In this document: positions 3,001-18,401 of the stretch, in pieces
Layout of the letters: every line of letters starts with the position of its first letter
Numbering within the stretch: position 1 is the stretch's first letter
DNA from: Tilletia caries
Taxonomy: Eukaryota; Basidiomycota; Exobasidiomycetes; Tilletiales; Tilletiaceae
Direction: 5' to 3'
Length of the DNA: 64,000 nucleotides
Assembly (NCBI GenBank): GCA_032718865.1
Contig: JALUTQ010000046.1
Location: 372,001 to 436,000 of the forward strand
Made by a program: the position numbers and the translations under genes
The notes under the pieces: generated by a model
What the model saw: only the letters and a program-made list of their open reading frames with translations
Database searches by the model: none
Told to the model about the DNA's origin: nothing

Positions 3001-4160
3001 TAGTGGGCCCAGGATTGGGCTCCGCGCTCCGCGTAAATTCCGGCGGAGTCCTCCAGGCGGACTCCGTGCTTTTTTAAGGTCAAAAATCTCTCAAAAGTGA
3101 GCTCCGCGCTCCGCCTCCGGCGGAGCCCTCCGTCGGAGGAGTACGGAGTCCGCAAAACCCCAGCTCCGCGTCAACTCCGGGGACAACCTTATCTACCGCC
3201 TCCACGGTTTGCCAGAGAGCATCATCTCTGACCAAGACACACGCTGGAAGTCAACGTTCTGGCAAGAACTCCACCGCCTTCAAGGAACAAGGTTGCGCTT
3301 CTCGACAGCGTACCATCCCGAGACTGACGGCGCCACCGAACGGGCCAACCGAACCGCCATCCAGATCCTGCGATCCATGGTCAGCGCTGACCAGAAGGAC
3401 TGGAAGGATCGGCTGACAGCTACCGAGTTCGCAATGAACTCGCAAACGAACCAGACCACTGGATTCAGCCCCTTCGAAATGCTTTACGGTTTCAACCCAG
3501 TCATGGTTCCGAACCCTGCATCCTCCAGCAAGATCAGCCCATTCAAAGGCGTTCGACAGTACCACGAAAAAGATCAAGCTCAACATGATGGCTGCTCACG
3601 ACAGCATCATCGCCTCTCGCACCCGACAGACCACGCAAGCTAATAAGCGTCGGTCAGTCACCGCACCGTACCAGGTAGGCGACTTGGTCTACTTGTCCAC
3701 CAAGAATCTTAAGCTTCCGACAGGACGAGCATCTAAGTTATTGCCACGATACCTTGGCCCGTACAAGATCGCCAAGTGTCTTGTGGAGCAGGATGCATTC
3801 ACCATTGAGCTACCTAAAGAACTAAAGGATCGCCGGATCCACCCAACGTTTCACAGTAGCCTCCTGAAGCCTCACGTACCGAACGACGATAAGTTGTTTC
3901 CTGGTCGTGAACCAAAAGCATTTTATGACTTTGGTACAAATGAGGATGAAGAGTGGCAAGTGGAAGATGTCCTCGGTCATCGTTGGCTATCCGCCCGCCT
4001 TCAGCTGCTTGTACTGTGGTCGACTGGAGAGAACACCTGGGAGCCAATTGGGAATTGCAACCGACTCTCTGTACTGGACAAGTACTTGGAGCTTCATGGT
4101 GTACACCAGCCCGACATGCTACCTCAAGGTACTCACACCTCAGGATTGGTCAGATCATAA
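2..4160 (+). pseudogene. pol: Degenerate Ty3/gypsy pol: RT, RNase H, integrase, chromodomain
   Basis: The frame is already open at base 2, so the gene begins before the window. The reverse transcriptase has the YLDD box (AYLDDIFIFS, near 790-830) and RNase H follows (VVTDAS, ITDHRSLEYL, near 1240-1480). The integrase has a zinc-binding H/C region (CGPCAV near 2150), VPDTPWKGMAIDFVG, and past the MITE LPESIISDQD and TERANR. A chromodomain ends the protein (WQVEDVLGH to WEPIGN, 3955-4055). Four lesions are visible: an extra T in the T5 run at 1036-1040, an in-frame TAG at 1548-1550 where family members usually have Gln before YVAG, the MITE at 2400-3191, and a one-base slip in the A run at 3567-3571. 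The role was reverse transcription and integration of the element. Confidence 0.88.
2400..3191. mobile_element. 792-bp hAT-type MITE inserted in the gypsy integrase
   Basis: Terminal inverted repeats TAAGGTTGTCCCCGGAGT start at 2400, and their exact inverse ends at 3191. The 8-bp duplication TCTACCGC flanks them at 2392-2399 and 3192-3199. Eight-base duplication is the hAT signature. The interior has no coding capacity and is packed with short words such as GGAGCGCGGAG and GGAATTCCG in both orientations. The first three bases of the element form the TAA that ends the upstream integrase frame. The frame resumes exactly one target duplication later, so host codons on both sides are still in register. 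Confidence 0.9.
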
Positions 4161-4594
4161 ACGTGCAGCACGTGACTACGATCTGACAGCGTTGAGTCCT
4201 TTACACAAAAAACACAAAAGAAAAAAAAATATATACAGAAAACCTCAATTAAACAAATACGCAGCACTTAGAGGTGTACCGTGCATGACGCAGGAACGAA
4301 GGTCCCGTCGGAGTATATGCACCTACATTCTAGACCTTTGAATATGTGCTGGGTACCTGCAGATAAATGGCAGTGCCTTGCATGGTCTAGAACCTCAAAC
4401 GCCGAAAAATCGGGACGGAGTTTTTAACCCGTTCCTGACCACACCTTCACTCAACACCGCTCAGCATTTCACCTCTACGTTGCATCGGCATCGAGTTGAA
4501 CACCACTCGAAGCAATCCAATGTTGCGCTCCTGAACGCTTGCTGCGGTGCGCAGCACACTGCTGATGGTCGCCGTGGATGGGGAGAGAGGAAGC
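4161..4594 (+). other. Non-coding gap between gypsy pol and the downstream ORF
   Basis: I see no credible gene here. There is an A-rich patch (4206-4230) and unique sequence leading to the TATA box at 4595. It lies inside the gypsy element, between the chromodomain stop and the extra ORF. Confidence 0.5.
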
Positions 4595-4602
4595 TATATA
4601 AG
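4595..4602 (+). promoter_or_regulatory. TATA box of an internal gypsy transcription unit
   Basis: TATATAAG lies about 90 bp before the ATG at 4695. Between them is a (CA)n tract (about 4657-4694). The spacing fits a stand-alone promoter for the ORF that follows, rather than readthrough from pol. Confidence 0.45.
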
Positions 4603-4694
4603 AGACAGTGTCGTTAGGGAGAATTGACTGATTCTACTCATCAAAACACACTCTCAGTACACACACACACACACACACTCACACACACACACAC

Positions 4695-5361
4695 ATGACT
4701 TATACACACACTTCTGATCCTCGGATCCCTCCTCGCACTCCTCGCGACAACACTCCTCACCCTTCCTACTCTCCCAACGACTCCCTGGTCATCAAGGACG
4801 AACAAGAGGATCCTGTTTTTGCAGTCTTTCGGTTTCTACACTCAAGAACGGCTCCCGAACGGCGAAACCGATTCCGAACAAGATGGCGACCCACTTCCCT
4901 TTGTTCCTCAGTCACAGCACATCCAGACCGCCGTCGACACCGCCCTCCACTACGTATTTAGTACCTTCTCAATGATGTCAGCTAATACTAGGGCTTGTTA
5001 CTTTATGTACATGAAGCCGTTTCTCCGTCCTGAGCTGGAGGAAGCGGTTGCCCAAGCAACTGCTCAGCTCCAGGCTGAGAATGATCGACTTACGGCCGAG
5101 AACGAGCGCCTCGACCGACACCTTCGAGCCCGACTCCGACTCGCCGGCTCCCGGTTTTACTTTCTTCCGGAATCCCGGTGGTCTCAACAATCGTGGTCTC
5201 GCCACTCACTCCGCCAACTCAACCACGCGGACGGGGTCAACATGGCGGCCCAACTTATTGTAGCTGCCGATGGTAACACTCACCACCCCTATCTCCTCCA
5301 CAACCCCGCTTACCGCTACTGTCTCCGCCGCTTTGCCCCCTACTCCCACTCTCACCCTTAA
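4695..5361 (+). pseudogene. Extra coiled-coil ORF between gypsy pol and the 3' LTR
   Basis: Two overlapping open frames (4695-4961 and 4819-5361) join into about 220 residues if one single-base shift near 4815-4822 is allowed. The N-terminal third is Pro/Thr/Ser-rich with SLVIKDEQEDPVFA. The middle has a heptad-like stretch, ELEEAVAQATAQLQAENDRL and more, that predicts a coiled coil. The tail is basic and Ser/His-rich. I recognise no family. The place, downstream of pol and before the purine tract, is where env-like or accessory genes sit in some gypsy elements. A gag-like fragment of another insertion is the other possibility. The function is unknown. Confidence 0.45.
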
Positions 5362-5480
5362 AAGTTTCCTCACTGCTCCCTTTGTCTCTCCACTATGCTT
5401 CCTCCACAAAAAATTCCCCTCTTTCTTGACTTCTTCAAAATTTACACTTTGGTGAAAAACTCTTTTGACTGACATGTCAG

Positions 5481-5495
5481 CCCAGAAGGGGAGGA
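5481..5495 (+). other. Polypurine tract of the gypsy element
   Basis: CCCAGAAGGGGAGGA directly abuts the TGTAAG start of the 3' LTR. This is the normal primer site for plus-strand DNA synthesis in LTR retrotransposons. Confidence 0.75.
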
Positions 5496-6041
5496 TGTAA
5501 GGTGTCTGACATATGTAGGTGCCACGCGTACATTATTCAGCACCTCACAAGTTAACATTTCTATCCTCTCACCCGTACCGACGCGTGGTGACCGACGCGT
5601 GGTGCGGGTTGTTTTTCTTCTCTATAATTTACGCATTGATATATGGTATCTGCGCGCGCGATATGTGGTGCGCGTTGTTTTTATTTCTCACCTGAGACGC
5701 GCCGCGCGTCGACAAGTGTCACGTGGCGCGTGTGGTGTGCGACGCGTGGTGCGCGTTGGTTTCTCACGCGCCCAACGCGTGGTGCGCGTCACGTGCCACA
5801 TATGGTGCGTGTTGTTTACAATTTTAGGTGAAGTGTTGGTTCACGCGAATTTACCATCGAAACACATTTTTCGCGTGGTGAACCAACGCTCACCACGCGC
5901 ACCGCGCGCACCACTCACCACCGCTTCCTCTCACCTCACCTCGCCACACTCACACTTCCCCTTTGACTCGTCCCTGCTCCCATGATGACTGTATGACTGT
6001 GTATGTATTTAGCCCGTGTCAAAGGATGACTGTGTATTGAC
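5496..6041 (+). repeat. Gypsy 3' LTR, left part (U3)
   Basis: It starts TGTAAGGTGTCTGACA after the polypurine tract and holds GC-rich near-repeats of ACGCGTGGTGCGCGT. It breaks at the hAT insertion after the target duplication GTATTGAC (6034-6041). The remainder of the LTR resumes at 14890. Confidence 0.8.
5524..5780 (+). promoter_or_regulatory. Cluster of MluI-box (ACGCGT) and CACGTG sites in the LTR U3
   Basis: ACGCGT occurs at 5524, 5581, 5595, 5742 and 5775, and once more across the hAT at 14931. CACGTG is present near 5720, 5790 and 14944. ACGCGT is the core bound by the fungal G1/S factor MBF, and CACGTG is a bHLH E-box. Regulation by them is an inference from motif density only. Confidence 0.45.
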
Positions 6042-6336
6042 CAGGGCTCGGCAGAACTAAGGCGACTAAGAAACTAAGACTATCCGACTAAGCCTTAGTC
6101 CCGACTAGACTAGACTATGACTAAGGGTTTTTGGCATCCGACTATGACTATGACTAAGGCCCCGCCAGGTCCGACTATAGTCGGTCTTAGTCTCTTAGTC
6201 GGACCCTTTTTGGGTTTTTCATCCGGGCTGAGATGCTTGAAAGGCCCTCCTTCGCGTTCACAAACTACTTCGAGTCATGCACTTCAAATTAGTAGGAACA
6301 CACAATTGTGACAGAAATCTCAGACTAGCATCCGAC
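6042..6336. repeat. Left subterminal region of the hAT element
   Basis: It is dense in ACTAAG, CTTAGTC and GACTATGACTA words on both strands, for example 6056-6205. The same words recur in the right subterminal region (14575-14881), which marks the two as ends of one element. There is no gene here. Confidence 0.7.
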
Positions 6337-6950
6337 CAAGGTTCGGCAACTATCTTCACTATGTAACTATGATAACTATATAGTTATAACTAATAGTGAT
6401 AACTTGACTATACTTTGGGCGGCGAAGCCGCCTAGAAAAAATAGTAGCTATAACTTTTTCAGATCGGCGCGGAGTAACTAATAGTTGAAATAGTTATTAA
6501 AAATCGCACTTGGCTGATATAGCCGCTAGATGGTCACTATGTAGTAGCTCCAGCTACTCCTAGTCACATATAGTCGCTATTTCAGTTACTCATAGCCACA
6601 TATAGTGACTATTTCACCCAAATATAACTTTTTGTGTTGGACAGGGGCTGGCTGAGACAGCTGTTGGATAGTTACTATATAGTAGTTCCAGTCACTTATA
6701 GCCACATATAGTGACTATGTCGATCTCACTTCGTGCTGAACCAGTCACAGGTAGCTGCTGGAAGTAACTATAGTGGCTGTTTCAGCGAAAAGCCAACCAA
6801 AATTTTGCATGGCTGAAATAGTAACTATTAGTTTTTATAGTAGCTATTTCTCACTTGACTATACTATTTCCCGCCGAGGTGACCACTCACTATAACTTGA
6901 CTATACTATTTCGCAGAAAAGTGGTAACTCTAGTAGCTTGCCGAGCCTTG
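6337..6950. mobile_element. 614-bp hAT-type MITE nested in the large hAT
   Basis: The ends CAAGGTTCGGCAAC and inverted CAAGGCTCGGCAAG are flanked by the 8-bp duplication CATCCGAC at 6329-6336 and 6951-6958. The interior is AT-rich, with many ATAGTAACTA and ATAGTGACTA words and no ORF. The ends share CTCGGCA with those of the surrounding 8.8-kb hAT, so the same transposase may have moved it. Confidence 0.88.
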
Positions 6951-7125
6951 CATCCGACAATTCGTCGGATTAGTTCGACAAATAATTTGACGTGTCCGAC
7001 GTCCGATTAGCATTCGCATTCGCCGAGTTACTATTACATAATAATTAATATGCACTACTTTCCGTTTAGCTCTGGCGCGCGTCGACAGTCATGTCCTGCA
7101 CGGCCGTCAGCGAAATTTTGCCGCA

Positions 7126-9518
7126 ATGGAGCTCAAAGCCTTCCAACAAGTACGAGCGCACAGCAAACATCCGTCCGCTGCTGCTGAAGAGGTGGTGCGC
7201 GAAGGCGCGCGCTTGTTCTGGCCCACGTCCTCGTACCAATTCGACACGATCTTCAACAAACTTTTTGGCTCGCCGATGTCGGCTGGAAACGAAGTACTTC
7301 GCACGGCTCTACGACCTCGCCCTCCCGATTCCTTTACCGACACACGAGGTGCCGGTCCTTATGGCCCAGTCGGAGAGTTGTGGCTCAATTTCTGCGTCCA
7401 CTATCGTGCTCAAGCCATCGGATTCGATCTTGACCACATTGAGGCCATATCTCACGCTCTCATCCCGGAGCTCGCCGCTGAGCTCCTCCATCTCGACTCC
7501 GGCTACTCCCCAGAGGAGGCGCACCACCACATCTCCTCCGCGGGGGCCTACGGACGACTGGTATTTCCCGTCACGCCCAGTCGCCTGCGCGACGTCCACG
7601 AGTGGATTGTGGCGAAGGAGCAAGTTTTCGAACTTCACGAGCGAGTGACTGGGCTACAGCAGAAGCTGAACTGGCTTCACATCCATCATGGATCTCTCGA
7701 CCGACTCACCTCCTGTTTACACTTCGCTCGCCAAGAGAATAGCGCTCTCCAGGCTCAGATCCGGAAAGCCAACGAGGATCGAGATGGCGCCATCCTATCT
7801 CTCCGAATGGCCGACGAGCAGCTCGAAACCCAGACGACCGTACTCGTCAACCTACGAGCCGAGTTCGACGCCCTCGATACCAAGGCCGATCGTCTCGAGG
7901 ACGAGCTGACGGCCTGCAGAAGACAGCTGGACGGAGCTGATCAGACGGAACCGTCCAAACCCGCCGATACAGTACAAGTCGCAGTCCAGACCGATCCCGT
8001 CGACACGATGCAAGTCGCGGTCCAAGCCGAATCTGTCGATCCCGTCGTTCAAACCGATCCCATCAACATCGACACGGTACGATTCACCGATCCCATCCAA
8101 GCTGGCGTCCAGATCGATCTCGTTGACACGGCTGATCCCGTGGACGCGGAACAAGTCGCGGTCCGGATTAATCCCGTCGACACGGCGCATGAGAAGATCG
8201 ATTCTGCCGTCTGCAACCCGGCACAGGTTGCCGCCGGACCTTCGCTTTCCGGTCACCCTCTCCCTGAAGCGATTCCGGCAACGACCGAATCCGGTTGGCT
8301 CTCACTCCCTTCACCAACACGCAAGTGTCGACCCGCGCCTCTGGATGGCCAGCGCGAGGTCAACTCCCTCGTATTTGGCATGAAGACGTGCCTCGTCAAG
8401 CCGACAGACATTTTTACGTGGATGCGGGGGCCCGGACGGTATACTTCGTACAAACTTGTGGGTTCTGGCTCCCAAGGTTCAGTGTTCCGGGCTCGCGACT
8501 ACCTTCAACCGGAGCCCGTTGCCATTAAGTCAATAATCGGCCGAACTCACCAGTCTTTTCCGAGGACGGTATGGAATGAACTCGGTGCGCTCGTGCGTAT
8601 TTCCCATTCAAACATCATACGATTGCGCGACGTTCTACTCGTGCAAAATTCCAATCGCCCGCAAATCCAGCTTGTGCTTGACTTCTGCGAGACCGACCTT
8701 CTTCAGGTCCTCTCGCATCAACCCTCACGCGGACTCCTCTCTGCGGCCGTCATCGCAAATTTGATGTCACAAGTAGCTGAGGGACTGCGGGCTGTTCACT
8801 TGGTGAGTCTCTGTCCAAATTTGATCAACATCCACAACTCCGGACTCACAGCGCGCTTATATCTTTTACAGGCTCAATTATCTCACTTTGACATTAAGCC
8901 GGCAAACATCCTCATCGACAATCGAGGACACGTACGGATCGGCGACTTCGGCCTCGCAGAAGACCTACGTCAACCACCGCCCCAATTACGATCTCAGAGT
9001 GTCGTCAGTCTCTGGTATCGGGCTCCAGAGGCCTTGCTGCGTTCCATGGAACTCGGCAGTGCGGTAGACGTTTGGAGCTTGGAGTCGTGCTCGCACACGT
9101 GCTTGATCCCACTGGCGCGCCTCCTTGGTACGCCGGCCGTGCCGACGAGATGATCAGCCTCATCGCTGCAGACATGGACAAGATGGGTCAAGAGCTCTGG
9201 CCCGGATCCGACGCCCTACCCGGCGCTGTATGCGACGAGAGGATTCCGTACAGCGATCCGCAGCGTGGATTTGGGCGGGGTGCTAGACTACCGCCCGGTG
9301 TGGTACCACGTCCACCTCTGCACGCCCGCTTGCGAATGGTACGGGGTTCAGACTCTTCATACGACGATCTCATTCGAATCCTGCCTGACATCTTGGTGCT
9401 GGATCCCTACGAACGTCCAACCATGCACACAATCTTAAACATGGGTATGGGATTGCAGAATATTGTTCAGGCGCCTCTTCCACAGTTCCCGTCGAAACAC
9501 ACTGTAGAAATTCGATGA
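7126..9518 (+). CDS. Protein kinase (CDK/CMGC-like) with N-terminal coiled coil, cargo of the hAT; one frameshift
   Basis: The catalytic half starts near residue 435. It has the glycine loop LVGSGSQGSVFRA, the ATP-binding lysine in PVAIKSI, the catalytic loop HFDIKPANIL, the Mg loop GDFGLAE, and SLWYRAPE followed by DVWSL, a CDK-like layout. Phe replaces Arg of HRD. An intron at 8803-8871 (69 nt) splits the sequence just before HFDIK. The N-terminal part has a long coiled coil (about residues 170-280) and then degenerate repeats of VAVQTDPVD (about 280-350). After DVWSL one G appears missing near 9081: the other frame continues GVVLAHVLDPTG to the end, with LDPYERPT of subdomain XI. This is either a real lesion or a sequencing slip. 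The gene lies wholly between the hAT ends and faces the transposase gene. Confidence 0.75.
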
Positions 9519-9629
9519 TGGCCTCCCTTTGCGATGATATTTGGTAACCATAAGTCGACTTCAATTCGAATTTAGTCACGAACAGCGAACTATTAGCTGG
9601 ATAATAGTCAGAGTTTAGTTGTAGTACGA

Positions 9630-10000
9630 GTGCTATAGTAGGAATATAATAGGACTATAGTACCAGTGCTATAGTAGGACTATAGCAGGACTATAATACC
9701 AGTGCTATAGTAGGCTGTAGGACTATAGTAGGACTATATACCAGTGCTATAGTGGGCTGTAGGACTATAGTAGAACTATAGTAGAGAACTATAGTAGGAC
9801 TATATACCAGTGCTATAGTAGGACTATGGTAGGACTATAGTAGAACTATAGTACCAGTGCTTAAGTAGGACTGTAGTACCATATCATTAGCCAGTACTAT
9901 AGTAGGACTATGGAGTATGGTACCAATGATATTGTAGGACTATAGTACTTAGTACCAGTGCCCAGTGGCCAGTGGCCAGTAGTAGTGCTATAGTACTGTC
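9630..10000. repeat. Degenerate tandem array of CTATAGTAGGACTATAG units
   Basis: Units of roughly 20-45 bp built from CTATAGTAGGACTATAGTACCAGTG are repeated with drift. The array lies in the tail-to-tail gap between the kinase and transposase genes of the hAT, and its ACTATAG words resemble the element's subterminal motifs. Confidence 0.75.
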
Positions 10001-10040
10001 TTTCTGAAAACGGCTGTCAAACAGGATGAGAACGGCTCAA

Positions 10041-10080
10041 GAATGGCCTGTGAATCATGACCCTGATTCACAGGCCATTC
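10041..10080. other. Perfect 17-bp inverted repeat (hairpin)
   Basis: GAATGGCCTGTGAATCA (10041-10057) and its exact complement (10064-10080) enclose a 6-base loop, and weaker pairing extends outward (GAACGG with CCGTTC). It lies 500 bp past the kinase stop and 180 bp past the transposase stop, so it could shape the 3' ends of both transcripts. Confidence 0.7.
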
Positions 10081-11080
10081 TCAACCCGTTCCGCAGACTA
10101 AAAACCGACCAAGCAGATTATTAATTGAATGGTAGTTGGATTTTTAGTCGCATTAGTCGGACTCGTCCGACCATGAGTCGACAACCAGTCGTTCCAATTC
10201 TCACAGTCCACTGTGCTCAGACATTTTAATCTCTTTGATTCCAAGGAAAGACAAGCTAAGCAGGAGTGATTTGCGGAGTCGGAGGAATGGGAGCGGTCGC
10301 CGTAGTGCTAAAGCCGGCTTTGATGAGCTGGTTCGCCAGGAGAAGCTCTTGCAGCGAACGCGGTGACAGGCTTCGGCGGCGTACAGAGCAGATCCGACCC
10401 GCGGCGGAGAATGTACGCTCTACCTCGGCTGTGGAACCCGTGGCAGCCAAGGCCTTGCGAGCAACCTTGGCCAGCGTGGGAAAGTTGACCTGGTTTTCTT
10501 TCCACCACTGGAGTACCGTCGTCCCGGCGCGCATCTTGAACTGAAAGCTCAGGTAAGCTGTGATCTCGTCCACCTCCGATCCAGCGGGCGTATCTTCGTC
10601 AGGGGTTCGCTCTCGCGCCCAGATGTCGATGTCGAGCACATCGGTTGCGACCGGAGCCATCGTCGGCACACCCTGGTGTCCGACGGCCAAACTCACTTCG
10701 CGACGGAGCAGTCCCTTGGCAACTTCGACCTTTTCCGGAAAGTCTTTTTGCAGCGAACGCAGTCGATTTCTTGGGTCTAGAATTGCTGCAAGAAGGAGCG
10801 GCTCACAGGAGCTTGCTTTCTCTCGATAAGGCCGAAGTTTGTCGGCAGTAGCTTGCAATGCATCGCCAAAGAACTTGCCCATGGCACCCTCTGTCTTCCG
10901 TGCGAGGTCGATCTCTACCTTGAGAGCATGGGCGAGCTTCCCGTGCAACGCCAAAGTTTCGCAAGCCGTAGGGCCTCTGATCTCTACTTGCTTGGTCAGA
11001 GCCATGAAGTACCCCAGAATACGAACCGTTCGCCGAAGTAAAACGATCTCTTCTTGCTTGAGGTTGAGTTCCGGACCGTA

Positions 11081-11649
11081 CACTGCCAATCGTCCATGAA
11101 GAACTGGGGATAGTCCTCAGCACGACACGTGAGGATCATCCTCGACGATATCGTGCGATCATCCTACAACCCTCGTGGGATCCACGAGATCTGAGGAGAT
11201 CCTCAGATAAATGAGCACCGCCTGGCATATTTTTTTGTACAACGTTATTATTTCTCAACACCAGGTCCTAATTGAGCGCGTCAGCCAGCATTTGAATCAT
11301 CCCCATGCCCTGGATTCGTGTTTCCAAAATTATGTGACATTATATTATTTTGAACTGAAAATGGTTACTATGTGCTGCGGCGCTCGTGGTTTAGTGGTAA
11401 CACCGCTGGATTTCGAAAAAAAGTCCCGGGTTCGAATCCGGGTATGAGTATTTTTATTTTTTCCCCTCATTTTTTCTCATTTTTTGGGATTTCTGAGGAT
11501 GATCGTGGGCTTACCATCTCGTGCGACTCTCAACGATTGAGCCCAAAATGATCGTGGGAAATCCTGGGTCGGGTTAGCCTCACTCAGCCTCACGATGATC
11601 CTGCGAGATCCTCGCGATGGGTGAGGATCCTCGCAGCCGACTGGCAGTG
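11081..11649. mobile_element. 569-bp TA-flanked MITE (Tc1/mariner-like) in the hAT transposase
   Basis: The ends CACTGCCAATCG (11081-11092) and CGACTGGCAGTG (11638-11649) are inverted repeats with one mismatch. TA flanks both sides (11079-11080 and 11650-11651). Removing the element plus one TA restores the transposase frame exactly, which fixes the borders. Subterminal GATCATCCT/AGGATCATCG words occur at both ends. The interior codes for no protein but holds a tRNA-like unit. TA duplication points to the Tc1/mariner/pogo group; the family is otherwise unknown to me. Confidence 0.85.
11382..11450 (+). tRNA. tRNA-like Pol III unit, probably a decayed tRNA or SINE head
   Basis: The A box TGGTTTAGTGG and a perfect B box GGTTCGAATCC are at tRNA spacing. 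The acceptor strands GCTCGTG and TATGAGT can pair with some G-U, and CCCGG/CCGGG form the T stem. T5AT6 follows at once as a Pol III terminator (11451-11461). The anticodon arm is abnormal: GGATT/AGTCC can pair, but an A7 run makes a 9-base loop, so no anticodon is assigned with confidence. Confidence 0.45.
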
Positions 11650-14464
11650 TAGTCATTTCCACCGTCCAGCACGTCGGACCTGACGACGAACGCAAGCGCT
11701 TTGGCGAAACGCAGCGCCACTCGGAGTTGGAAGAATCGGCTGTTCCATCGGGTCTTGTTGAACATGGGCGGTATATGAACAGCGGCCGCCTTTTTCGGAT
11801 TGTCTTTGTATGCTTCCTTCGCCAGCCGGAGAAAGCGGCGGCGTCGCTCCGGGCTACTGCGGGCAATAGACAGTTAGACACGATGTTTGCGATCTTGATC
11901 AGGGGACTCAGGGGGGGCCTCTTCAGCTGACAGGGGCTGCTCTTGTGTGAAGGGCGCCTCTGTTGGGACAGGATCCGGCGCGCGAGAAGAAGATCCTGCG
12001 ATGTCTTCGTCGTCTTCCTCCTCCTCCTCGGGAATCGTCTCTAGCATCCCCATATCGCTGGGGGTCAGCAAATCGTCTACCAGAGGGATCGCGTCCTCGT
12101 GGGCCTCGTCCTCCTCATCAGCTCCGAGCCCCAGATAACCGAGATCAGCGGACGTTAATAGCGCAGATGCCACGCCTGGAGAGTCGTCTTCTGGGTCAGA
12201 CCCTTCGTCGAACTCATCTGAAGATAGGCCACCCTTCGCCTCGTCGTCGGTGTCGAGGCTGGCCATCAGCTTCGCCCGCCGCTTGGGGTCGTCGAGATTC
12301 GGACCCGAGCTGGAAGACCCAGGAAGCACCACCTTCTTTCGGCCTGAGGTCTTCGGAACGCCAAGGGCAACGTAGAGATGCTGGACACAAAGGTTCAGAT
12401 GGTGTGCAAAGCATCGAACATGATGCGTGGAGGCCGTGTAGGCTGAGGTGATATTGTCACTTCTCAGTCGTTCCTCGATGAGTCGTCCCATCCGAATGAC
12501 AGCCGATGCGCTGTCGGTAACGATGGAAGCATTCCACATGGTATGGAGATCATGCTCTAACAGGAACTCGACGACGTGTCCAGAGAAGGTGGCGCCCGAG
12601 TGTCGTCCGAGGAGTACTTTGAAGTCCACGCAGAAGGAGTGGAACACCCAAGATTCGTCAATGTAACTCGCAACCATGGCTTGGAAAGCGTGTCGTTGAC
12701 CGGGTGTCGTCCACTCGTCAAGTTGAAGCGAGAACTCGTGGGTACGCAGGGCCGCGATGGCCTGCCGAAGAAGGTTACCGCTGATCTCCGCCACGTCTCT
12801 TTGCACCTGTCGCGGTGACATGAAGGCCTTGATGGCAGCGGGATCGAGAGACTGGATCAGCTTTTGGAAGCCTTCTGTCCGGAGCGTCGTAAAAGGAAGG
12901 CAGTCCCTGACGAGCCACTCTGCGGCATGACGGCGCACCACTTCGATCTTGAGTTCATGATTCCGCTGCCGATGGCCATTCATCCAGCCGACAACATCTT
13001 TTCCCGTACCGGAGGCGGCACCAGAAAACGAGGAACCGGGCGCAGAACCTTTTGGCTGGAGAGCTGGTGCGACGTATGGACCGAACGTGTTTCGAAGGGA
13101 GTGGTCCTTGGGGTTGAAAATGTTGGGACAAAGGGATGCCTTTTGCTTTAGGTTGAGATGCGGCGCCAAAGGAGAGGGTGTGTCGTTGGTGACTGGGATG
13201 TCACGCTCGCAAAATCGGCATCGAAAGAGCTGGACAGTAGCCTGGTATCGAGGCCGTCCACCTCTGGGATACTTCCATTCCAGTGTCTTTTTGCCGGCGC
13301 GATAGTAGCCCACGTACTTGGAACCTTTGCTACCCACACCCCTCACTGGTTCACCGGGGTCTTCTTCCTTTTCCGAATCGTCCTCGATGTCGGCAACTTC
13401 GACATCGCTGTGACTGCGCGCGTTGTATGCCTTGGAACGTGAGGAAAACTTCTTCGTGTGAACGTTGGACTTGGACGAAGGGGCTGTGACGTTGCGCTTG
13501 TGTTGACCGTGCTGTTGCTGAGTAACCGCGCCTGGCCTCTTTGATTTGTGACCTCGAGGTGTTGGGGTGGTGGTAATGGCCTCTTCTCCAGAGTCGTCTT
13601 CAGCAGCGGCGCCCGGCCTGAATTGATCAGGATCCTGGCTATCCTCGTCGCTGTCCGCAGCGACTTCGTCTTCGCCGAAGTCGTCGAGCGCGCTGTCCCC
13701 GAAGTTGCTCTCCGGAGCGCGGTTGTGCATGGCGGCGTCTTGCTCGCGCCGCTCAAGAGCGCTCATCCGGGTTGCGGATCGTTGTGGACGCGAGGGTCCG
13801 GAGGTCTCTGGCTGCCGTTTCGCGAGCACCCGACCTTTGCCCTTGTCAGGCTTTGCGCGCTTGGAGGCGGGGCCTTCTGCTTGGTCCGTGTCGAAACCGG
13901 ATAGGCGTTTCGACGGAGTCCGGTCGCGCTTCGAGCGACGGTAGAAGGCGTCGTCGTCGGTTTGTGACGCAGATCCTCGGCGTTGCAAGGGACGTGCGAT
14001 GGGTCGAGATGGCGCAGTGGGCTGGCGAGAAGTCGGGTGGGTTTGAGAAGGATGTCGGCGGTCCCGAAGCGCGCACCAAGTTGTCGAAGTGGGCGATTTC
14101 CTTAACTCGTTCCACCATGCTTCTGTCTCTGCATGATTGATTTTGGGCTGTTGAGTTACAAAGAAGCAATGACATCCAGGTCAGCGGAGCCGACTCGAGA
14201 GGTTTAGCTACACGGAGAAGATGCGAAGGTACTCACAATCATATCGAGAACGGAGGAGGGGAGGGTCTTGACAGCGCCGGTCTGCGCGGCAGTGGCACTG
14301 CGAGCATGAAATGCCACATTGCTCCAGGCGCTGGCGATGTTGGGTGGCAGTTGGAGCTCGTCCAGTTGGGGGTGAAATGGCTGATCGGCGAGGTTCTCGA
14401 AGGCGTACTGCCCAACGAGGTCAAAAACGACGGGGTCGTATGGAGAGGTTGCCGCCTCTGTCAT

Positions 14465-14881
14465 CTTCTGTACGGTTTGGCTTTCCAGCGAGCGGCGTCG
14501 ACAGCAGATGATGGTCGGTGGACGGTTGACGAATGAAGTAGACGTAGAAGGTGTGATGGGAATTTTTTTTCGAAACTGCGACTATTAGCCGGTAGCCAGA
14601 CTAATGGTCATAGCTGGTCTTTTATCGGCCGTAAATCTTAAGACTATTTGTCGATCAATAGTCTCGTAGTCGGACTTAGTCTAACTAAGGAAACTAATAG
14701 TCGGTTAGTGACATGTTAGTCACACGCTAGTCAGGTCCGCTTCCGACTAAGCCAAACTAAGAAACTTAAGTGACTATTAGTCCCGATTAGACTAGACTAA
14801 CGGACGGTCCGGGTCAATGTGACTATGACTATGACTAAAGATTTCAGAAAAGTACCGACTATTAGTCGTTGCCGAGGCCTG
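14465..14881. repeat. hAT transposase promoter and right subterminal repeats
   Basis: Upstream of the transposase ATG, bases 14575-14870 are filled with GACTATTAGTC, ACTAAG and GACTAGACTAGACTA words in both orientations, mirroring the left end. The right TIR is 14863-14881. I see no other gene. Confidence 0.7.
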
Positions 14882-14889
14882 GTATTGAC

Positions 14890-15400
14890 TGCTGGGTGAT
14901 TTATGGTGACTGTTGGATGACTACTATCTGACGCGTCAGTTGTCACGTGGCTGTGACTCTTGTGACTCACCAGCACACCGACGCATCCACATCACCACAC
15001 CTCAGCGCAGCGCACACCACACAATGCGCTGCGCATCAGGGGCACCATGAAAGGTATAAAAGGAGCGCCCTCGCCGCCCTTCTTCCCTTCTGGTCCCCCC
15101 AGCTCTTTCCTCTCGCACTCCCAGACAACTAACTTAGCAATCACAGATCATTGCAGAGTTAAAGTCTACTGTGTGAAGTCTGAGTCTCATAAAGTTTCAT
15201 CAAGTGATTGAGAGAGCCACTTTCACCCACACACCTATAGGACCACTGGTATACTGGTTAGTTATCTAAACATAGTAGCATAGGCCAAAGTTCAGCAGCG
15301 CGTCACTTCTGTCTCTATACAACGAGCGGTACTACGCGTCCGACTGTCCAACACCAATTCTATTGTGTTTGCAACGACCTTATAACTAGGAAATCTTACA
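14890..15400 (+). repeat. Gypsy 3' LTR, right part with promoter
   Basis: It continues the LTR after the hAT. TATAAAAGG at 15055-15063 is the LTR TATA box in plus orientation. The end is CTTACA (15395-15400), the inverse of the LTR start. The last 36 or so codons of the copia open frame are read through this sequence and are not copia protein. Confidence 0.78.
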
Positions 15401-18387
15401 CCTTCGCTGTTCCTCTTCCTCTTGTAGACCCATCGCGAGCCCACTGCCGTCCTTCCTACCGGCAGCTTCGCCGGCTTCCAGGTTCCTGCTCGACGATGAT
15501 TTCCGAGTTCGACCGCTTCCGCCGCCTGCCATTCCGACGCGTCCGGGGCGGCCATTGCCTGTCGGTGAGTGTTTGGCTCGTCTCCTAGCTCTGCTGCAGC
15601 AATGTTAACGTTGCCATTCCGTCCAGGAGCAGCTCGTCGAGGCGGGAGCGCGCGACGTGGGACCTCCGGGCGCGGCCGACGCGGTTCAGGTACGTGCATT
15701 GGTCGTGCCCGGGCCTGTCCAGTTCCGACCGCGACTTCGTCCTGCCGTGCGCGCTTCCTGTCAGCTGGTCCGGTGTCTTCGTTGCGGTCCCCGGGAACAT
15801 CGTGCTGGCCGACTCCGGCCTCTTGCTCCCCCTGGTCCTCCGCCACCGCCGTACCTTTGTCCTCGACATCCGCCACCTCCGGCTCCTCAACGCCCGTCTC
15901 CAGCACCTCCTTGACCTCCTTCGCCGCCTTTGCCGCGTCCTCCCCTTGCTCCGCACTTCCCTCGTCGAACTTTTCCACACTCTCCCCCTGCCCCACGCCG
16001 CTCTCGTCCGTGTTGCCGGTTACATCGTGCAAGTGGGGCTCTTCGACGGTGGTCGACGCGGGCGTTGGGACCGGTCCATCCTGACTGGGGGTGGGATCCG
16101 GGATCTCGGTTATCGTCGCCGATTGGTGTCGCGGCTCGAATGTCACCTCTCTGGTAACATGGATCTTTCCGGTTCCATTCTCCAGCACCGCCACCCCACC
16201 TTCGTACGTGAGTCCAAGGTACCGACCCCGAATGGTCTTTGCTGCAGTGAGATCTGACTTGGTTCTTGTTTCCGCAGGGGTATGGACCCAGGCCGCGCAT
16301 CCAAAGGGCTGGACCATACGCAGGTTGACCTTTCGCTTGAACAGCCGTTCCCAAGCCGAGATGCCGTCCCTCACCGTGAGTATGAGCTGAATGACAGTGG
16401 TGTACTGTAGCGCCCAGTCCCAGTACGCCATCGAGATGCCGCTGTCGACCATCATTGCTGACACCATTTCCTTGATCGTCCTGTTCTTCCGCTCAGCAAT
16501 GCCGTTGTGCTGTGGCGTATATGGAGGGGTGACCTGATGCACGATACCCTTTCCGCCCAACCAAGCCTTGAACGCATTGCTCGTGTACTCTCCGCCGCCG
16601 TCCGACCGCAGAACATGGACCTTCGCTGCGAGGCAGTTCTCGAGCAGATGAATCCATCCAATGACGGTCTGTGCGACGACATGCTTCGCCGGGATCGCCT
16701 TTGCCAGAGTGAGTCCGAGGTAGTCGTCCGTGAGCGCAACATAGTACTTGTTTCCTGACGCCGAATCTTGGACCGCTCCTGCCACATCAGTGACAACCAG
16801 GTCAAGGGGACTAGTTCCTCGCAGCGTCTCTTGTCCGAAGGTGTGTTTGGTGGTTTTGACCTTCTGACAGGAGACGCAGAAGTCGCTGACGTTGTCCTTC
16901 AGTACTATGCCCTTGATAGTGCCATCGCGGATCATGTTCTTGAGCCGGGTCTTCGACACATGACCGAACCGTTCGTGAGCCTCGGTGAGTGTAACGACCT
17001 CGTCCTTTGCGGGAGTAAACGCCACCAGGTGCTCTTGCTGATCATGATGCGTGTCCGTGCCTGCTCCAGGGAGCTCCAGAAGGAACAGACCTTGCTTCTC
17101 CGCCAACGACAAGGTGAGCGTGCCGTTGCGAATGAAGCTCTCGTTGTGCTTCAAGCTGACAGTCCAACCCTTTCGGATCAGGACTGGGGCCGACAGCAGG
17201 TTCACGCGCGCCTCCTTGACATGATGGACTTCCGTGAAGAGAACCTTCTTCCCGTCCTCCGTCGTCATCCCCACCGATCCCACAGCCGTGGACTCCATCG
17301 ATCCTTTACGCGTGGCGAGGCCAAACTGCATAGGTGAGTGCAGTTTGCGCATGTCCGTGAGCTGCGACGCATCACTAACGATGTGATGCGTGGCTCCAGA
17401 GTCGATAATCCAGGTCGTGTTTCGTGGTCCCGTCACCGTTGCCACCGTTGCGTCCTCGGCCGGGTCGACCGTCACCGCGTTGGCCACGCCGATGAACGGT
17501 CCCGTGGGCGCGACCATATGAGTGTCGCCGCCCTCCTGACTGTCCTCATCCTTGGGACAGTCCCGTTTCATGTGTCCAAGCTCATTGCACCGATAGCACC
17601 GGACGCGTGAGAGGTCGCGTCCATTGCCCTTGCCGTGCCCCGAGCCCTTCCGTTCCGTGTAGTTGGACTTCCGTGAGTGGTCCTCTTGGTTCTTGTTTCC
17701 GGCTGCCATCATCACCGCAGCCGTGCTTCGTGCCTGGGTGCGGGCGCGCTGGGCCTCCTCCAGGTTGTACTGACGCCGCAGCTCTGCGAACGTCTTCAGG
17801 CTCTCCGGATACATGCGCCACTGGAACTTGAGCATGTCGAACGACTCCGGCAGCGAGTCGAGGAACATGAGGCACTTGTCCTCATCGGCGTACCGAAGAC
17901 CGGCACCCGAAGCCTTGTACAGCATCTGAAGGAAGCCATCTAGGTGAGCCTTGAGGTCCGTTCCTTCAAGCAGGAAGTGGTTGAGCAGCTCCCGCTTGAT
18001 CTCCGCGCGATGCTCCGGCGCCGTTAAGTCGTGCAGGGAGCAGAGCTGATCCCAGATCTCCTTTGCCGACCGACAGTCCTCGATGTCCACCTTGAGTGTA
18101 TCACTGATGGTTCGGCGCATGATCGCCATAGCCTTGCGGTCTCTTTCGAGCCAAGACTTGAGGTCCTTCTTCTCCTCGGCCGAGACGACGGTCAAGGCCG
18201 CCGTTGTCGACTCTTCGATCTTGATCGCCACCGGCTGTGGCTCGTTTCCTTCGACGATGTCCAATGCTCCGAGCATCAGGAGTGAATCCGTCAAAGCGGT
18301 CTTCCACTGGAAGAAGTCGTCCAGGCCCGTCAAGGTGGGGATCTTGAAGAGGGCCGTCGATTCACCGTTGGAGTTGTTGCTTGACAT
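15401..18387 (-). pseudogene. gag-pol: Ty1/copia gag-pol, truncated at the start of RT
   Basis: One uninterrupted frame of about 995 residues belongs to copia. Gag is N-terminal (FFQWKTALTDSLLMLG) and ends with the zinc knuckle CYRCNELGHMKRDC near residue 260. The protease active site is IIDSGATHHIV near 330. The pre-integrase HERFGHVSKTRL is near 470. The integrase D, D, E are seen in VVTDVAG, LRSDGGGEY and NGIAERKN. An acidic linker leads to RT, which stops after VGSRWVYKRKRNSEG, where the gypsy LTR begins. All visible catalytic residues are present and there are no internal stops, so the element was probably young when interrupted. The open frame runs on to 15292 inside LTR sequence. Confidence 0.9.
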
Positions 18388-18401
18388 TGTATCTTAATGC
18401 T

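Follow-up and report, generated by a model that had tools for sequence, protein, structure and literature searches.

Autonomous cut-and-paste transposons are usually reduced to a transposase gene. Ordinary members of the hAT superfamily, such as Ac, Hermes and Restless, have an 8-bp target-site duplication (TSD), short terminal inverted repeats (TIRs), subterminal repeats and a C-terminal dimerisation domain, and encode a transposase only. Here we describe a hAT element of Tilletia caries in a stretch of 64,000 nucleotides (the window; assembly GCA_032718865.1, contig JALUTQ010000046.1, positions 372,001 to 436,000). This element shares the traits of Ac, Hermes and Restless, but it and its relatives add a gene for a protein kinase that resembles cyclin-dependent kinases (CDKs). 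Our preferred reading, in which our confidence is evenly balanced, is that the window holds a dead, recently inserted copy from a Tilletia lineage of hATs that combine a transposase with one or two convergent CDK-like kinases, and that these kinases work for the element, most likely through the chromatin or silencing machinery.

The nearest known parallels are the IS3EU and hAT7 elements of rust fungi. The IS3EU transposons carry an alpha-kinase gene opposite to the transposase, with a TET/JBP gene between the two in TET-bearing families (PMC12730594). Like the Tilletia elements, they are fungal DNA transposons with a transposase and a protein kinase in opposite orientation. They differ in their 6-bp TSD, TIRs of more than 30 bp ending in TAYGG, alpha-kinase, TET/JBP gene and occurrence in rusts, whereas the window element, from Tilletia, has an 8-bp TSD, a 12-bp CAGGG-type TIR and a CDK-like kinase, with histone H3 genes in sister subfamilies. 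The lengths of its TSD and TIR place it outside IS3EU. The hAT7 elements of rust fungi are likewise fungal hATs with an accessory gene, encoding a TET/JBP dioxygenase thought to counter silencing; their TSD is 7 bp, and in three named families the dioxygenase gene lies upstream of the transposase in the same orientation (PMC12730594). The window element has an 8-bp TSD, and a Pfam scan of four of its reading frames gave no TET/JBP match, which places it outside hAT7. HarbingerS and MuDR of Phytophthora, as cited in the same paper, carry SET histone methyltransferase genes. These too are chromatin genes on DNA transposons, but they encode a histone-modifying enzyme, neither a kinase nor a histone, and belong to an oomycete.

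Searches of the open-licence PubMed Central literature by title and start of abstract, with broad queries covering the first 12 or 20 of up to 614 papers, listed no description of a hAT that carries a gene for a protein kinase or a histone. Fungal DNA transposons with accessory regulatory genes are already known; kinase-bearing hATs, some with a histone H3 that lacks lysine 9 (K9), appear to be new as far as these searches reach.

Structure of the element and its insertion site

The initial annotation of the window had described a hAT with a perfect 8-bp duplication that encloses a transposase gene and a spliced CDK-like kinase gene, tail to tail, with matching subterminal repeats at both ends. 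Our analysis bears out this description (TSD GTATTGAC; domains PF05699 and PF00069). It adds that the window copy is broken and that sister elements carry histone H3 genes. The borders and terminal features are:

6042..14881, unstranded: hAT element of subfamily A, 8,840 bp, with TIR and TSD at both ends, empty sites, and a copy on contig C9 with another TSD
6034..6041, unstranded: left TSD, GTATTGAC, sequence at the element border
14882..14889, unstranded: right TSD, GTATTGAC, sequence at the element border
6042..6053, plus strand: left TIR, CAGGGCTCGGCA, the same as the left TIR of subfamily B
14870..14881, minus strand: right TIR, CAGGCCTCGGCA on the minus strand, the right end reading TGCCGAGGCCTG on the forward strand
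6042..6340, unstranded: left subterminal repeats, rich in GACTA/TAGTC, with 16 of the 62 GACTA motifs
14560..14881, unstranded: right subterminal repeats, rich in GACTA/TAGTC, with 19 of the 62 GACTA motifs

The left border reads GTATTGAC/CAGGGCTCGGCA and the right border TGCCGAGGCCTG/GTATTGAC, a perfect duplication. The CAGGG-like TIRs of the two ends agree at 11 of their 12 bases. Of the 62 occurrences of GACTA or its complement across the element, 16 fall within the leftmost 299 bp and 19 within the rightmost 322 bp, which leaves 27 for the interior. The 8-bp TSD, the short CAGGG-like TIR with subterminal repeats, and the PF05699 transposase assign the element to the hAT superfamily.

We searched the genome (38.1 Mb in 40 contigs; C4, C9 and similar labels denote contigs of this genome) for empty sites, using a 419-base query in which both flanks are joined with a single GTATTGAC. 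The query matched 40 places, 40 of 68 candidates having been scored. In 27 of these the match is full length or short of the last base only, at 98–100% identity; the others are partial and include the window's own two halves. The empty sites that had been proposed as a check, host-repeat copies continuous across one GTATTGAC, therefore exist. Several of the 27 near-complete copies form same-strand pairs 8.0–8.2 kb apart, the spacing expected of the two long terminal repeats (LTRs) of one retrotransposon, from which we infer that the host repeat is probably an LTR, as the initial annotation called it. Because the flanks match other repeat copies at up to 100%, the window insertion is young. Adjoining the host repeat, a long copia-like polyprotein frame was recognised by eye at 15292–18393.

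Kinase and transposase genes

The two genes converge on a repetitive spacer. Their splice sites are predicted from sequence alone.

7126..8802, plus strand: kinase (K1) exon 1, with an N-terminal domain (about residues 20–150, motif DTRGAGPYGPxGELW), a linker and the N-lobe of a CDK-like kinase
8803..8871, plus strand: K1 intron of 69 bp with GT-AG borders, in a position shared with subfamilies B and C
8872..9518, plus strand: K1 exon 2, with HFDIKPAN, DFG and WYRAPE; frame broken near 9078 in the window copy
9580..10000, unstranded: tandem-repeat spacer between the two gene tails, seen in the sequence, aligning to other copies in several registers
10256..14464, minus strand: hAT transposase gene (exon 1 14464–14237, intron 14236–14148, exon 2 from 14147), PF05699, broken in the window

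K1 (7126–9518, plus strand) matches PF00069 at 3e-36 in a Pfam profile scan. Its kinase domain carries the motifs VAIK, HFDIKPAN, DFG and WYRAPE, and in subfamilies A, B and C the intron lies directly upstream of the HxD motif. The N-terminal domain of about 130 residues has no Pfam match; diverged subfamilies share it, and it is also found in T. indica, T. horrida and T. walkeri. The linker is variable, and its coiled coil was judged by eye. In a comparison with the PDB, the closest solved structures to P0003, a T. indica relative of K1, are CDK11 and CDK2. Judging from PF00069, the catalytic lysine, HxD, DFG and APE motifs, and the best CDK matches obtained through P0003, K1 is a eukaryotic protein kinase of the CDK-like (CMGC) type.

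The transposase gene runs tail to tail with the kinase gene on the minus strand (14464–10256) and matches PF05699 at 5.1e-18 (65.1 bits, cut-off 21.4). For a BED-type or Hermes DNA-binding domain the match to PF10683 (18.1 bits against a cut-off of 20.5), and for the RNase-H-fold catalytic core the match to PF14372 (E 0.16), fall under their cut-offs. Compared with the continuous 1,114-codon frame of the C9 copy, the window transposase is split by a 569-bp insertion and a frame change near 11.9 kb. The kinase frame has a one-base deletion near 9078, which is shared with the C24 copy and is absent from the C9, C4 and C39 copies. As assembled, the window copy is dead and non-autonomous, with both gene frames broken and two small elements nested in it.

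Other copies of the element

A DNA search of the genome revealed kinase and transposase sequence at four further places, on C9, C4, C39 and C24. The C9 locus is a complete second insertion with both genes within the same ends, its own TSD (ACCTTGAG) and about 740 bp of extra sequence, so the two genes move as a unit. Exon 2 of its transposase forms an open frame of 1,114 codons, but a stop and an inserted base disrupt its kinase. The C4 copy has lost its right end, carries 10 inserted bases close to where the kinase starts and has a broken transposase frame, and the C39 copy retains a partial transposase and has lost about 440 bp of the kinase. C24 is a 12-kb contig, 99.8% identical to the window over 4000 to 14518, flank included; for this reason we rejected it as a separate insertion and take it to be the same locus. 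No subfamily A copy in the assembly has both genes intact.

A search for further copies with both genes had been proposed as a check, and C9 provides a complete one, C4 and C39 incomplete ones. We encountered neither of the contrary outcomes named beforehand, which were a TIR family without the kinase together with an unrelated kinase locus, and a host repeat with no continuous copy.

A lineage of kinase-carrying hATs

Searches of the genome gave 49 matches with K1 as query and 56 with the transposase. Seven subfamilies were examined, each in part and, for A, B and C, including the ends:

Subfamily A, the window locus and the C9, C4, C39 and C24 copies: kinase K1
Subfamily B, C33 and C27: kinase K1 and an H3-like gene
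Subfamily C, C4:1626k, C22 and C40:615k: two kinases, K1 and K2
Subfamily D, C3:972k: kinase K1
Subfamily E, parts of C30:681k, C25, C32, C40:1520k and C3:619k: K1 by genome-search matches, and an H3 gene
Subfamily F, C36: kinase K1
Subfamily G, C34 and C15: kinase K2

K2 is a shorter CDK-like kinase without the N-terminal domain of K1. At the three subfamily C loci, the two different kinase genes lie in tandem and converge with one transposase. The C40 element is complete (TSD CGGGGAAT, TIR CAAGGCCCGGC); the C4:1626k copy is seemingly cut short at the right, and no clear TSD was found for the C22 element. Subfamily B is complete at two loci (TSDs ATAGTGAC and AGCAGAGG). Its elements enclose a kinase gene, an H3-like gene and a transposase gene, and their 12-bp left TIR is identical to that of A. 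Kinase and transposase are thus enclosed by one TIR/TSD pair at five loci in three subfamilies (window, C9, C33, C27 and C40). In the kinase-hAT element at C36:1344200-1352900, frames resembling a non-LTR retrotransposon were seen by eye between kinase and transposase and are probably nested.

A related transposase match lies within 9.5 kb of 23 of 30 K1 loci (23 of 35 if five loci with the kinase domain only are counted; C3:262950, among the 30, matches in the kinase part only and lies beside a weak transposase match). Starting from the transposases, 35 of 74 PF05699 matches have a tail-to-tail kinase within 3.2 kb, compared with a mean of 0.53 and a maximum of 3 in 500 shuffles, in which the lengths of some contigs are lower bounds. 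The kinase list for this count was reduced from 154 matches (a few not displayed) to 119 by removing additional fragments of genes already on it, and the positions on C24 and C33 were added by hand; without them the count is 33 of 74. When the distance is extended to 12 kb, 41 hAT matches have a kinase, the nearest not tail to tail in six of them (for example C4:981895, 42 bp away and head to head, and C28:1238174).

Could the two genes be accidental neighbours, or the kinase a separate nested element? Seven of the 30 K1 loci do lack a related transposase match within 9.5 kb. However, the shared TIR/TSD pairs and the 35 pairings against 0.53 expected make the probability of this explanation negligible, and the five complete loci led us to reject it. 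The preferred reading rests on these complete elements and on the co-location test.

The initial annotation had also proposed the capture of an intron-bearing kinase. It is right in that the kinase is on board, moves with the element and has an intron common to A, B and C. A single recent capture is rejected, since K1 and transposase recur together across the genome and K1 has homologues in other Tilletia; one or two kinase types are usual in the Tilletia lineage.

Relatives in other Tilletia species

The window kinase and a fragment of a T. caries protein share 99% identity, as do a K2 kinase from this genome and a protein of T. laevis, so that the host belongs to the T. caries group of wheat-bunt fungi. 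K1 was compared with 5.8 billion proteins, of which the best 7,998 candidates by shared words were scored; six of seven K1 matches are from Tilletia (T. caries, T. indica, T. horrida and T. walkeri) and the seventh is a weak match to an unnamed kinase. For K2, which had 169 matches with 120 of them listed, the best 19 belong to seven Tilletia species and reach down to E 6e-57, followed by an unnamed protein at E 1e-14; by sequence, K2 is closest to CDK structures. The named close homologues of the transposase, four of six matches, are also Tilletia proteins.

We built trees of both proteins, with nine K2 proteins chosen among the 19 from Tilletia. The two trees agree on subfamily A, whose kinase (100/98) and transposase (100/99) are each joined to a different T. 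indica protein. The B transposase falls in a group (100/98) with proteins of T. controversa, T. indica and T. horrida. T. indica and T. horrida have full-length kinases. All 21 kinases of a hand-chosen set retain HxD and DFG, and the catalytic motifs are conserved across about 30–65% protein identity and several species. The pairing itself is seen in one genome, the other species being represented by proteins without genomic context. It is older than the copies and, for subfamily A at least, probably older than the split between T. caries and T. indica.

Selection on the genes

A test for purifying selection on the kinase across copies had been suggested. With the neutral nonsynonymous share set at 0.74, we calculated binomial p values, for copy pairs that are not independent. 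In subfamily C, nonsynonymous changes in K2 account for one of 12 changed codons between the C40 and C22 copies (p 3e-6), three of 11 between C4 and C22 (p 0.0016) and two of five between C4 and C40 (p 0.11), and in K1 exon 2 for three of nine between C40 and C22 (p 0.012). Purifying selection is shown for the kinases of subfamily C only, namely K2 and, more weakly, the C-terminal half of K1; the window's own subfamily A has too few changes. The ratio of nonsynonymous to synonymous rates (dN/dS) of the transposase is 0.47–0.50 in C and 0.47–1.06 in A. The H3-like genes of the B pair differ by a single change.

These data bear on the possibility that the kinase was captured once and drifts along as a passenger without function. 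Damaged kinase frames in five of five subfamily A copies (the window and four others) would fit such drift, as would the near-neutral changes in K1 exon 1, where purifying selection is not clear (dN/dS 0.49–0.77 in A, 0.81 in B and 0.49–1.46 in C). The conserved catalytic motifs, the full-length kinases of T. indica and T. horrida, and the purifying selection that subfamily C shows in K2 and in exon 2 of K1 all count against a passenger, which we regard as very unlikely.

Histone H3 genes in sister elements

In subfamily B, a spliced H3-like gene of the long-loop type lies on the kinase strand between kinase and transposase (PF00125, 2e-17). Its tail in C27 is ARTKCVARHRSQ, with histidine at position 9; the C33 gene has tyrosine at this position and a damaged frame. 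In T. horrida P0005, a K1 kinase is followed by a B-type H3 in one gene model, likewise with histidine at position 9. Subfamily E has a near-canonical spliced H3 gene between kinase and transposase, on the transposase strand, with the tail ARTKQTARFSTGGKAPR and phenylalanine at position 9. It is present at four E loci, with exon 1 damaged in C25, and at C3:622k the C-terminal piece alone was found. The aligned H3 structures have lysine at position 9. This lysine is the methylation site of heterochromatin. H3 was apparently acquired twice, in E on the transposase strand with F9 and in B on the kinase strand with H9 or Y9, and the same lysine was lost both times.

A codon pattern for TKQTARxSTGG, which misses more diverged tails such as that of B, occurs at 18 places in the genome, with K at residue 9 in three, F in four (all subfamily E), R in seven and Q in four. 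Because copies within a group are near-identical in the matched stretch, the 18 places represent a handful of events. The R9 genes are at C4:292785, C5:1644060, C7:302908, C19:343534, C23:898004, C30:498541 and C34:995697, and the Q9 genes at C1:1600360, C5:1093694, C27:892337 and C39:1051900. These dispersed multi-copy genes have no hAT, kinase, Helitron or Mutator-like element match listed within 8 kb. Three other H3 genes served as a comparison. C39:102k is canonical, and K9 is also present in C1:65k and in the CENP-A-like C1:636k, so divergent H3 genes of this genome do not all lose this residue. The divergent gene at C1:65640-66060 (K9 kept, I at position 14) has no kinase-hAT match listed nearby.

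One tentative and rather doubtful idea is that the elements carry an anti-silencing kit, a CDK-like kinase joined in some subfamilies by an H3 that would be unmethylatable at position 9, and that several kinds of mobile element behave as if making H3K9-proof histones.

Nested elements

Two small elements interrupt the window copy:

6337..6950, unstranded: 614-bp hAT-like miniature inverted-repeat transposable element (MITE), TIR CAAGGTTCGGCA, 8-bp TSD CATCCGAC, absent from the C9, C4 and C39 copies
11081..11649, unstranded: 569-bp element within the transposase, TA duplications, TIR CACTGCCA, absent from the C9 and C4 copies

The MITE has many genome copies at 95–98% identity. Its ends resemble those of subfamily C, whose elements may be able to mobilise it. 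The 569-bp element has short inverted ends and five other copies listed at 99% identity. To the eye, one stretch of it resembles a partial tRNA gene, with no ARAGORN or Rfam match.

Possible roles of the kinase

In the preferred reading, the kinase would travel with the element, be retained through the divergence of subfamilies and species, and act for the element rather than as cargo without effect. Its targets would most likely be nuclear, either chromatin or the silencing machinery, and its action would keep the element expressed and able to move. That the kinase is kept because it helps the element is an inference; chromatin as its target is a guess. We make this guess because the sole other accessory genes seen in the lineage encode H3 without lysine 9, and because PMC12730594 ties TET/JBP and SET accessory genes to silencing and places a kinase beside TET/JBP in IS3EU.

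Several observations weigh against this reading, in addition to the damaged subfamily A frames and the near-neutral K1 exon 1 given above. Thirty-nine of the 74 PF05699 matches have no tail-to-tail kinase, including all 20 best-scoring ones, so a kinase is not a general hAT property, and hATs can do without it. The B kinase frame is split in C33. The kinase tree does not resolve B and T. horrida P0005, both of which lie beside the A group (84/90 for the whole), and subfamily F is placed differently in the kinase and transposase trees. Four of the 21 kinases, a fragment among them, gave no match to the APE or the lysine pattern, and the glycine loop of T. horrida P0004 is altered. In addition, no H3 match was found in the A, C, D, F or G elements examined, and the argument from H3 is therefore indirect.

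The kinase may instead serve the element through the transposase, end-joining factors or the cell cycle, with excision tied to a favourable phase; the initial annotation had put forward the transposase and host repair factors as possible substrates. We consider this an appreciable, though lesser, possibility. K1 (through P0003) and K2 are closest to CDK structures, the pairing with the transposase is tight and convergent, and a minority of the kinase subfamilies examined has a histone gene; direct control of transposase or repair would by itself leave the residue-9-replaced H3 of two sister subfamilies unexplained.

Carrier transposons with host-useful cargo are known in fungi, and the kinase could regulate host cells (for example in growth or host interaction) to the benefit of host and element alike, with the element as carrier. 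One would expect variation in such cargo; at most loci, the 23 of 30 noted above, K1 lies next to a hAT transposase, in one usual place and orientation. The copies also decay after insertion, and we think this explanation unlikely.

If the preferred reading is true, kinases kept across the genus and H3 without K9 would mean that these transposons actively reprogram host chromatin or the cell cycle, and the elements would offer a natural system for testing which host pathway limits transposition. Some Tilletia genes annotated as 'cyclin-dependent kinase 2' or 'negative regulator of the PHO system' may be transposon genes.

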